Positions 21,506 to 49,880 of a stretch of 64,000 bases of DNA are shown here, one piece after another (within the stretch, counting starts at the first letter, position 1; each line of letters begins with the position of its first letter). Location of the stretch: the NCBI GenBank assembly GCA_029260315.1, contig JAJDDM010000008.1, forward strand, positions 1-64,000, written 5' to 3'. This stretch comes from Phycisphaerales bacterium. GTDB taxonomy: Bacteria > Planctomycetota > Phycisphaerae > Phycisphaerales > UBA1924. The notes beneath the pieces were generated by a model, which had not been told where the DNA came from, did no database searches, and saw nothing but the letters and a program-made list of their open reading frames with translations. Both the position numbers and the translations under genes were made by a program.

Positions 21506-21565
21506 GGGTCTGGGGTCTGGGGTCTGGGGTCTGGGGTCGAGAATCCTACTGCCTACTGCCTACTG
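21506..21565. repeat. Two adjacent heptamer microrepeat arrays
   Basis: (GGGTCTG)x4 at 21506-21538 and (CCTACTG)x3 at 21545-21565. Confidence 0.92.
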
Positions 21566-21656
21566 CCTTCCCCGACCCTCTACCCCCGACCCGCGACCCG
21601 CCGCGCCCCGCGGCCTTGCCGCCCCGCGCCGGCGGCCCTAACCTACCGCCTGACAC

Positions 21657-28783: not shown

Positions 28784-30691
28784 ATGGGTCAGAAGCAGTC
28801 AGCGAAGGACAACTGGCAGGATCTCGTGGCGACTTTTCTCGCAGAGCAGCAGCGGATCCGCGCCGGCGGCGGGACCAAGGCCATCGACCGCCAGCACGCC
28901 AAGAACCGCCTCACCGCCCGCGAACGGATTGTCCGCGTGGTCGACCCCCGGGTAGATCGGCTCTCCGAGCCGATGCGCACCGCAGCCGAATCCTCCCCAA
29001 CGCCTGATCCCCACCGCGACGAGATCCCCAACTTCCAGGAACTCGCCCTCTGGTCCGCGCACGGCATGTACGCAGAGCACGGCGGCGCCCCCGCCGCGGG
29101 CGTCGTCACCGGCATCGGCCTCGTCCACGACCGCCCGCACATGGTCATCGCCAACGACGCGACGGTGAAGGCCGGCGCGTTCTTCCCGATGACCTGCAAG
29201 AAGATCATCCGGGCGCAGCACATCGCGCGGATGGCCCGCCTGCCCCTGATCTATCTCGTGGACTCGGCGGGCGTGTTCCTGCCCATGCAAGAAGACGTCT
29301 TCCCCGACACCGACGACTTCGGGCGGATCTTCTACCTCAACAGCGTCCTCTCCGCCGAGGGCGTCCCCCAGCTCGCGGCGATCATGGGCTATTGCGTCGC
29401 TGGCGGGGGGTATCTGCCCGTCCTCTGCGACACCTTACTGATGACCGAGGGCTCGGGGTTGTATCTCGCGGGACAGGCGCTCGTGAAGGCCGCGATCGGG
29501 CAGGAGGTCACCGACGAGGAGCTCGGCGGCGCGATGATGCACGCCGAGATCTCCGGCACGATCGACTTCAAGGAGCCCGACGACGAGGCCTGCATCGCGC
29601 GGATCCGGGAGTTGGTTCAGAAGCGGGCCGAAGCGACGGAGCGACGAAGCGACGGAGGGAGGGAGGAAGAGACGACGAGACGACCAGACGAAGAGACGAA
29701 GTCGGATTCCTCAGTCACTCATTCGCTCACTCGCTCATTCGCTCCGCCCTACCGCGACGCCTCCGACATCTATTCGACCTTCACCTCCACACCCGGCTCG
29801 CAATACGACATCAACGACATCCTGGCCTGCATCGTCGATTCCCGGGTAGATCGGCTCTCCGAGCCGATGCGCAATGCGCCGACGAACGCGCCATCGCACG
29901 TTTCCAAAGGCAATATCGGCTCGGAGAGCCGATCTACTCACGAGCGCCTCGCCCCGGACTTCGACGAGTACAAGGCCGACTTCGGTCGCTCGATCGTCTG
30001 CGGCTACGCCAGTCTCGGCGGGATCCCCGTCGGCATCGTCGCCAACCAGGGCAAGCTCACCCAGCAAGCCAAGGCGGGCGGCAAGGCGGGGCCCGGCAAG
30101 TCCACCAACATGCCGCGGGTGATCTATGTCGAGGCGGCGGACAAGGCCGCGCGGTTCATCATGGACTGCAACCAGCGCAAGATCCCGCTGCTGTTCCTGC
30201 ACGACACGACGGGGTTCATGGTCGGGCGCGACAGCGAGCAGGCGGGGATCATCCGTGCCGGGGCGAAGATGGTCAACGCGATGAGCAACTCGATCGTGCC
30301 GAAGATCGTGCTGATCATGGGCGGCAGCTACGGCGCGGGCAACTACGCGATGTGCGGGCGGGCGTTCGAGCCGTTCCTCACGTTCGCCTGGCCCGGGAGC
30401 AACTGCGCCGTCATGGGCGCGGCCCAGGCGACCGGCACCCTCGCCATGATCGAGGAACGCTCCCGCCAGCGCAAGGGCGAAGAGATCGACGACCAGACGC
30501 ACAAGCAGATTCTAGACGCCGTGCGCGCGAGTTATAACGAGCAGCAGGACATTCGGTACGGGGCGGCGCGGGGGTGGGTCGATCGGATCATCGAGCCGCA
30601 CAGGACGCGCGAGGAGCTGATCGCGGCACTGGACGCGGCGCGGAACTGGGATCGGTCGCGCGAGTTCAGGACGGGCGTGTTGCAGACGTGA
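28784..30691 (+). CDS. Acyl-CoA (methylcrotonyl/propionyl-type) carboxylase beta (carboxyltransferase) subunit with in-frame repeat insertions
   Basis: MVIANDATVKAGAFFPMTCKKIIRAQHIARMARLPLIYLVDSAGVFLP; LLFLHDTTGFMVGRDSEQAGIIRAGAKMVNAMSNSIVPKIVLIMGGSYGAGNYAMCGRAFEP. Confidence 0.93.
   Translation: MGQKQSAKDNWQDLVATFLAEQQRIRAGGGTKAIDRQHAKNRLTARERIVRVVDPRVDRLSEPMRTAAESSPTPDPHRDEIPNFQELALWSAHGMYAEHGGAPAAGVVTGIGLVHDRPHMVIANDATVKAGAFFPMTCKKIIRAQHIARMARLPLIYLVDSAGVFLPMQEDVFPDTDDFGRIFYLNSVLSAEGVPQLAAIMGYCVAGGGYLPVLCDTLLMTEGSGLYLAGQALVKAAIGQEVTDEELGGAMMHAEISGTIDFKEPDDEACIARIRELVQKRAEATERRSDGGREEETTRRPDEETKSDSSVTHSLTRSFAPPYRDASDIYSTFTSTPGSQYDINDILACIVDSRVDRLSEPMRNAPTNAPSHVSKGNIGSESRSTHERLAPDFDEYKADFGRSIVCGYASLGGIPVGIVANQGKLTQQAKAGGKAGPGKSTNMPRVIYVEAADKAARFIMDCNQRKIPLLFLHDTTGFMVGRDSEQAGIIRAGAKMVNAMSNSIVPKIVLIMGGSYGAGNYAMCGRAFEPFLTFAWPGSNCAVMGAAQATGTLAMIEERSRQRKGEEIDDQTHKQILDAVRASYNEQQDIRYGAARGWVDRIIEPHRTREELIAALDAARNWDRSREFRTGVLQT
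28952..28974 (+). repeat. TCC-loop GTAG palindrome inside carboxylase gene (copy 1)
   Basis: GTAGATCGGCTCTCCGAGCCGAT, identical to 17461-17483; encodes VDRLSEP. Confidence 0.95.
29629..29742. repeat. Octamer microrepeat arrays inside carboxylase gene
   Basis: cgaagcga-cggagcga-cgaagcga-cggaggga-gggaggaa-gagacgac-gagacgac-cagacgaa-gagacgaa (29629-29700), then tcagtcac-tcattcgc-tcactcgc-tcattcgc (29711-29742). Confidence 0.92.
29846..29937. repeat. REPIN-like inverted pair of TCC-loop palindromes inside carboxylase gene
   Basis: GTAGATCGGCTCTCCGAGCCGAT (29846-29868) and its exact 23-nt reverse complement ATCGGCTCGGAGAGCCGATCTAC (29915-29937). Confidence 0.96.
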
Positions 30692-48993: not shown

Positions 48994-49551
48994 TTACGGC
49001 CGGAATCCACGCATTGCCGCTCCCCCCCTCTCCTCCGGCTTCGTCGGCTCTTCCATCCAATCCTCACTCCAAGCTTCCCGCCCCTCCCTCACCGCCTGCA
49101 ACTTTCCCAGAAACCGCTCCCGCCGACGCTCGCGGTCGTACCGCTCGCGCGATGCGTTGTTCAGATACCGCTGCCCCTTGATCTCCGAGTTCTGCAGCGA
49201 ATCCGCCCAGCCGCGAATCTGCTTGCCGATCGACTCACTCTTCGATCTCAGAGCTGAAATCTGAGATTTGAGATGCTGATACCGCGCCGATCCCGACATC
49301 ACCGTCAGCATGGATCGCACCTCGCCTGCGCTGCCGCGCGCAATATATAGAAACGAGAGCAACTCCTTGGTCGTCCCCCGCTCGAACCCCTCGGCGATAT
49401 TGTTGCTCACCGACAATGCAGCACGCAACAACTGGCTCTTCAGATCGCCGTGGTACTTGAAGCACTGATCGTCAACAAGACTCTCGATCGCAACATACAA
49501 CCTCGCCGCGTCCTTCCAGACAGGCAGATCCTCGAAGCGATTGTACTTCAT
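48994..49551 (-). CDS. Four helix bundle protein (23S rRNA intervening-sequence protein family)
   Basis: MKYNRFEDLPVWKDAARLYVAIESLVDDQCFKYHGDLKSQLLRAALSVSNNIAEGFERGTTKELLSFLYIARGSAGEVRSML. Confidence 0.82.
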   Translation of the reverse strand: MKYNRFEDLPVWKDAARLYVAIESLVDDQCFKYHGDLKSQLLRAALSVSNNIAEGFERGTTKELLSFLYIARGSAGEVRSMLTVMSGSARYQHLKSQISALRSKSESIGKQIRGWADSLQNSEIKGQRYLNNASRERYDRERRRERFLGKLQAVREGREAWSEDWMEEPTKPEERGGAAMRGFRP

Positions 49552-49684: not shown

Positions 49685-49712
49685 CTCAAATCTCAAATCT
49701 CAAATCTCAAAT
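49685..49712. repeat. (CTCAAAT)x4 heptamer array
   Basis: CTCAAATCTCAAATCTCAAATCTCAAAT. Confidence 0.95.
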
Positions 49713-49880
49713 CCTCCAACTCTACACCAACCGCTCCAACTCCTCCCCCTCCATCACCATCACAACCTTCGCATACGCCAGAAAGAACCCCAGCCGCCCC
49801 GCACTCCACTCCGGCGTACCCGTCGTGCCAGATAGAACCACCATCCCGCAGCACCTCTTCCGTTCCCCCTACCCTCCCCC

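Follow-up and report, generated by a model that had tools for sequence, protein, structure and literature searches.

Octamer arrays inserted in frame in a planctomycete carboxylase gene are probable arms of S23/IVP elements

The window analysed here, a stretch of 64,000 nucleotides of contig JAJDDM010000008.1 (assembly GCA_029260315.1, Phycisphaerales; G000 below), carries a gene for an acyl-CoA carboxylase subunit, an S23/IVP gene, and several short-repeat arrays (Table 1). Within the carboxylase gene are three insertions, the third of which, at 29629-29744, is made of in-frame octamers and encodes the peptide EATERRSDGGREEETTRRPDEETKSDSSVTHSLTRSF. This agrees with the earlier note, which had described octamers at this place, in frame and with this peptide, inside a conserved enzyme that also holds two other insertions; those two are here found to be of the REP type.

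Table 1. Positions of the features in the window and what each assignment is based on
Feature	Position	Strand	Basis
Acyl-CoA carboxylase carboxyltransferase (beta) subunit gene, 635 aa, insertion host	28784..30691	+	PF01039 E=1.4e-114
In-frame REP, GTAG-tagged palindrome (GTAG + ATCGGCTC-TC-CGAGCCGAT)	28952..28974	+	sequence
Octamer arm 1, word RAGCGACG: AAGCGACG GAGCGACG AAGCGACG GAGGGAGG	29631..29662	+	word dispersed in own genome; other genera have it on IVP elements
Octamer arm 2, word RAGAGACG: AAGAGACG ACGAGACG ACCAGACG AAGAGACG	29667..29698	+	period-8 array
Octamer arm 3, inverted, word RAGCGA(A/G)T: GAGCGAAT GAGCGAGT GAGCGAAT GAGTGACT	29710..29744	-	hairpin partner of arm 1
In-frame inverted REP pair	29846..29937 (29846-29868 and 29915-29937)	+ and -	sequence
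(GGGTCTG)x4 heptamer array, word shared with the array beside IVP gene G000:C75:48209 (L398)	21506..21538	+	sequence
S23/IVP (PF05635) gene, one of three in own genome	48994..49551	-	PF05635 match 49213-49533 E=6e-22
Heptamer arm (ATTTGAG)x4, 134 bp upstream of the window's IVP gene	49685..49713	-	sequence

The closest solved structures to the carboxyltransferase are the beta subunits of MCC and PCC (3u9r, E=6e-105). In the alignment to MCC-beta (3u9r), from which, along with the orthologues, loop positions were taken, the three insertion sites correspond to 2, 17, and 0 intervening residues, and the octamers fall between the two main conserved blocks, a site that we take from the known fold of the carboxyltransferase family to be the linker joining the N and C domains. 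The idea of a decaying enzyme, raised in the earlier note, runs against the 73-83% identity of the catalytic blocks to a congener, the normal coding potential outside the inserts, and the Carboxyl_trans match (E=1e-114). The linker itself is hypervariable among orthologues of the same family. It is present without an array in the congener G001, and since L012 and other orthologues have variable linkers without 8-nt periodicity, it is older than the array. Just such orthologues had been named beforehand as evidence against the octamers being of note, and they do exist; however, in other genera the linker has octamers of different words, namely inverted RAGCGACG arms (L015), a CAAGGSAY-type word (L023), and RAGACG-type words (L027 and L029). 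In G095 (L018), the same linker has another, non-octamer repeat, which reads SPYQGEGRGEG ... SPQRGEGG.

The octamer stretch divides into a purine part (29629-29701) and an inverted pyrimidine part (29710-29744), with period-8 self-similarity scores of 35 and 17, respectively; at a threshold of 14, an order-4 Markov shuffle of 410 kb of the same genome gave no period-8 segments. Nine purine octamers had been seen as a single array. The octamers stand, but they make up two adjacent arrays of different words, and the pyrimidine octamers, likewise present, are more precisely an inverted array of a third word. Here, the carboxylase octamers are three short arrays of a family that is dispersed over this genome and its relatives, and not a local curiosity of slippage. 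In fact, BLAST placed octamer arrays at 27 other sites in the genome, and the word of arm 2 both recurs there (L127, L131, L136) and flanks the IVP genes L410 and L425. In the pattern search of the genome, the reversed-pattern control was not independent for periodic motifs. The format of the family in three genera is four RAG-N5 octamers followed by RAGGG, either solo or in convergent pairs, and non-bait words show the same format. By comparison, arms 2 and 3 in the carboxylase have four units, with ACGAGACG and ACCAGACG of arm 2 out of the RAG start, while arm 1 has three perfect units and then GAGGGAGG; these arms are typical but degenerate. Moreover, because the three arms bear three different words, 29631-29744 is a composite and not one deleted element. 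Arms 1 and 3 are predicted to pair in an RNA hairpin (-53.5 kcal/mol, z=-3.18, better than all 200 shuffles), and in this predicted fold they have the complementary, stem-forming termini of an intervening sequence (IVS). No ORF lies between the carboxylase arms, whose spacer is about 50 nt, and the locus is classed as arms only and not as a complete S23/IVP element.

Copy-number expansion and contraction, raised in the earlier note, would, as the driver, make the octamers a simple sequence repeat, produced by in-place replication slippage in a tolerant linker and persisting as neutral low-complexity coding sequence. The hypervariability of the linker in orthologues suits this reading, and a few long perfect arrays (8-25 units) do exist, so slippage acts on some. 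Yet unit number, instead of varying freely, is concentrated at four when genera are compared (19/30, 12/17, and 10/15 arrays in three genera), and among arrays of GTDB genomes that end in RAGGG and have four or more units, 99 of 115 have exactly four, with a search pattern that left out three-unit arrays. Further against slippage are the common RAGGG end in separate genera, the single degenerate position (R) among otherwise constant core positions, the linkage to IVP genes described below, and a strict convergent pairing: neighbouring arrays gave 34 convergent cases and no divergent pair closer than 700 nt. Some identical 37-mers with internal variants also recur at unlinked loci, so that much of the spread is not local slippage, which we regard as an unlikely origin of the arrays. 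Most arrays nonetheless differ from each other (20 distinct arrays of 26 in G023), and copying of whole arrays is thus shown only for a few. The spacers between paired arms were unrelated and non-conserved in a homology test, and the short pairs are therefore not simple deletion copies of one recent element, a notion that was rejected.

With coding sequences predicted by a purpose-made codon-usage model rather than a standard gene finder, 59 of 108 arrays fall within CDSs, 52 of these in the gene interior, whereas 83% of the sequence is coding. Arrays are rarer in genes than this fraction, as expected for selection against insertions, but are still very common there, and about half to two thirds of them are in frame within housekeeping genes (DnaE, UvrB, RlmN, IleRS, PGI, MeaB). 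For in-gene arrays, the purine strand is the coding strand in a ratio of 44:15. Ten further array-bearing genes of G000 (PGI, MeaB, Der, DnaE, FliI, IleRS, MqnE, RarA, MqnC, and Mrp; named by Pfam for those scanned and otherwise by sequence inspection) were aligned to orthologues, and the arrays all sit in loops that are length-variable in the orthologues and in which the congeners G001 and G002 have none. MqnE has three different words in G008, G023, and G000, and DnaE has octamers in G014 and G023 where G000 has a REP-derived stretch; different repeats reuse the same loops. Over the family, the RAGNNACG format is found in 17 of 120 genomes, with 58 in G081 and none in two congeners.

Alternatively, the tandem octamers might be regulatory sites that bind a chromosome-architecture protein or global regulator, as proposed for the class 1 and 2 sites of Geobacter metallireducens (IHF/HU). 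According to that description (PMC2700814), the Geobacter sites share the format, i.e., four tandem octanucleotides in opposite-strand pairs with variable spacing, and a single degenerate position between constant flanks points to protein recognition, possibly by the IVP itself. Nevertheless, over half of the arrays sit within unrelated housekeeping ORFs, each genome has its own words, and congeners lack arrays at the same genes, which makes a regulatory role quite unlikely as the explanation.

Given that GTAG-tagged REPs lie in the same gene, the arrays could instead have been mobilised by the Y1 transposases (RAYT) that would move the REPs of this genome. REPs, too, are found within ORFs and as head-to-head dimers (PMC3733652), and REP/REPIN and Rickettsia palindromic elements resemble the octamers as small dispersed repeats lying in frame, though they differ in being palindromic, in their GTAG/CGTC tags, and in their sequence logic (PMC3733652). 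The octamer arms are not palindromes and have no GTAG tag, unlike the separate REPs in the carboxylase, and the gene between full-length arms is an IVP and not a Y1_Tnp. A REP/RAYT origin was rejected on this anatomy and seems highly improbable to us. In-frame REP-like palindromes were also seen in PGI and DnaE of the same genome (L003, L045).

PF05635 is the family of the 23S rRNA intervening-sequence protein (S23/IVP), a four-helix bundle, and S23/IVP elements are known mainly as intervening sequences in rRNA genes. Here, convergent arrays 300-460 nt apart enclose an ORF of ~120 aa that matches PF05635 (E=1e-30 to 1e-37), such cargo being found between convergent octamer arrays in five cases plus L260 and L351. 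The family is represented in 75 of the 120 genomes. We inspected the flanks of 69 IVP genes without reference to octamers, at loci drawn mainly from the strongest PF05635 matches and with array detection restricted to periods not divisible by 3. For 64/69 IVP genes, at least one flank has a 7- or 8-mer array within 200 bp, compared with 4/53 control positions in the same loci (p=2e-23); arrays on both sides were found for 39/69 versus 1/53, and matching inverted words for 38/69 versus 0/53 (p=8e-13). The period is 7 in 71 of the IVP arms and 8 in 32. In six genomes reached via array-bearing loci labelled as other phyla, one of which is G034 of the planctomycete family, 19 of 23 IVP genes have an array on either side (7/42 controls) and 12 of 23 have matching inverted arrays (0/42 controls). 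Locus L258 (RHKP01000006.1), from a MAG titled 'Cyanobacteria bacterium CYA', has the same PF05635 coordinates and score as G034, and its title is probably wrong; being G034 of the same planctomycete family, it was rejected as cross-phylum evidence.

The words themselves follow the genes, in that dispersed arrays match the arms of the resident IVPs for the one word tested. As predicted, RGGCAYC arrays occur in all six genomes whose IVP arms bear RGGCAYC and in none of nine IVP-free genomes, with counts of 0, 2, and 3 in IVP genomes with other words. Over the 120 genomes, co-occurrence is modest (15/17 versus 60/103, p=0.03); G056 has arrays and no IVP match, and G103 is absent among the IVP-positive genomes listed. 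Conversely, IVP elements might simply prefer pre-existing tandem arrays, which would then be targets and not element parts. That arrays outnumber IVP genes in the same genomes, and that an array flanks just one side of some IVP genes, would fit such a preference. Insertion into one array, however, would leave halves in direct orientation, whereas two-sided words match as inverted repeats (the 38/69 above), often with the arms about 5-30 nt from the IVP ORF, and IVP-free genomes lack the tested word. We consider this reversed order of events very unlikely. The -1 frame is open through the whole element in 7/8 octamer-armed IVP elements but in only 8/93 other IVPs, as expected for elements that reside in, and are read through by, a host ORF. 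Octamer-armed IVP elements are in fact found inside DnaE2, an error-prone DNA polymerase, at about the same site in three genomes (L098, L339, and L260). There, the IVP gene is out of frame with its host, whose reading frame continues across it for roughly 130 residues.

In G000, the IVP genes have arms of RAGCGAGC-type octamers (C57), GGGTCTG heptamers (C75), and ATTTGAG heptamers (the gene in the window, for which no matching array was detected downstream). The GGGTCTG array of the window is one of two heptamer arrays, (GGGTCTG)4+ and (CCTACTG)3+, that lie next to each other at 21506-21568. None of the IVP genes found in G000, a MAG that is 92% complete in 195 contigs, bears the words of the carboxylase arms (RAGCGACG, RAGAGACG, RAGCGANT), while IVPs with RAGCGACG and RAGAGACG arms are present in sister genera. 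Loss, a missing contig, or action in trans may account for this.

Taken with the observed format, dispersal, array-IVP linkage, and in-frame presence within variable loops of numerous housekeeping proteins, the octamer arrays of the carboxylase are probably terminal arms of S23/IVP elements whose cargo was lost or never there. The full element is ~0.4-0.5 kb long and consists of about four 7- or 8-bp words in tandem, a PF05635 protein of ~120 aa, and the same array inverted. Arms are dispersed on their own as well, or in convergent pairs whose spacer is short and not conserved. Insertions may occur everywhere, with selection leaving those in intergenic DNA and permissive loops. An arm should be tolerated in any phase if it is stop-free and the length of the whole insert is divisible by 3, because a 7- or 8-nt word, not being a multiple of 3, reads as the same peptide in all frames. 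A tandem 7- or 8-nt word encodes, respectively, one heptapeptide or octapeptide in every frame, and RAGCGACG yields ATERRSD(G/E) in sense and a SLRRSVAP-like peptide in antisense. That the octamers are unusually stop-free was rejected as a special property, since random octamers of matched GC content, when repeated in tandem, lack stops on one strand in 81% of cases. As to the mover, we can only speculate. IVP is homologous to Avd, an accessory protein needed for the retrohoming of diversity-generating retroelements (PMC10053308), and this homology makes it a reasonable idea that IVP may help a host reverse transcriptase to copy arms in trans.

Among known systems, the 23S rRNA IVS with an S23p ORF in Leptospira and Coxiella (PMC4990558) has the same Pfam family, a size of ~0.4 kb, and complementary stem-forming arms, and is likewise sporadic in distribution and regarded as selfish. 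In contrast, the present elements lie in protein-coding and intergenic DNA (the carboxylase locus is not in an rRNA gene), their arms consist of about four tandem 7-8-mers, there are far more solo arms than copies with cargo, and elements located in ORFs keep the host frame open. A further mark of an IVS is its excision from the transcript by RNase III, with the fragments left unligated. Closer in format are the class 1 sites of G. metallireducens, which, as given in the main text of PMC2700814, are four tandem GTTGCTYN (reverse complement NRAGCAAC) with the same RAG phase and degenerate purine, arranged in opposite-strand pairs at variable distance, a layout also found here; four-heptamer elements within genes are described as well. 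There the sites are read as regulator sites, for which global-regulator binding is proposed but not demonstrated, and the main text makes no link to S23/IVP. In the arrays of G023 (L015, L095, L177, L178, and others), the first purine of the octamer is A or G about equally and the rest nearly constant, and this is the position that is degenerate in the Geobacter consensus.

GGGNATC heptamers of Xanthomonas and Nostoc (Rehm 2015, PMC4692102) have period 7 and share the four-unit preference and convergent pairs, 70-75 of which occur per Xanthomonas genome. They differ in being mostly non-coding and are explained by G-quadruplexes, S23 or intervening sequences going unmentioned there. The closest solved IVP structure is XCC0516 of Xanthomonas campestris (2gsc, E=5e-26). 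TAACTGA heptamers of Beggiatoaceae (PMC4679880) are also dispersed arrays (2-6 units) that are patchy across phyla, but they lie mainly just upstream of start codons with one word across lineages, and a translational role is proposed.

In our search of the open-access literature, no earlier statement of the IVP-array link was found. The link suggests what at least some bacterial 7-8-mer arrays are. It is conceivable, though we would at present lean against it, that much of the scattered 7-8-bp arrays of bacteria (planctomycete, Geobacter, Xanthomonas, and cyanobacterial) could be one phenomenon, namely S23/IVP arms that spread by Avd-like, reverse-transcriptase-assisted copying, with each lineage evolving a word of its own and planting in-frame, frame-agnostic peptides in housekeeping proteins. 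Both S23/IVP proteins and 7-8-mer arrays have been described for years without a known function, and the link between them, strong in both position and words, gives them a common, testable identity; it also carries intervening-sequence elements beyond rRNA into protein genes. Moreover, housekeeping proteins that repeatedly gain frame-independent peptide inserts at tolerant loops constitute a natural system, in which the arrays serve as natural maps of tolerant loops in essential enzymes.

As a separate observation, the minus-strand ORF of L100 (G014:C1:599133-603133), a leucyl-tRNA synthetase, appears to carry an in-frame IS200-like Y1_Tnp (RAYT-type) domain (PF01797, E=1.3e-5, above the cut-off) at residues 427-480, with the catalytic part on one side and the editing domain on the other, and an octamer array is also present.
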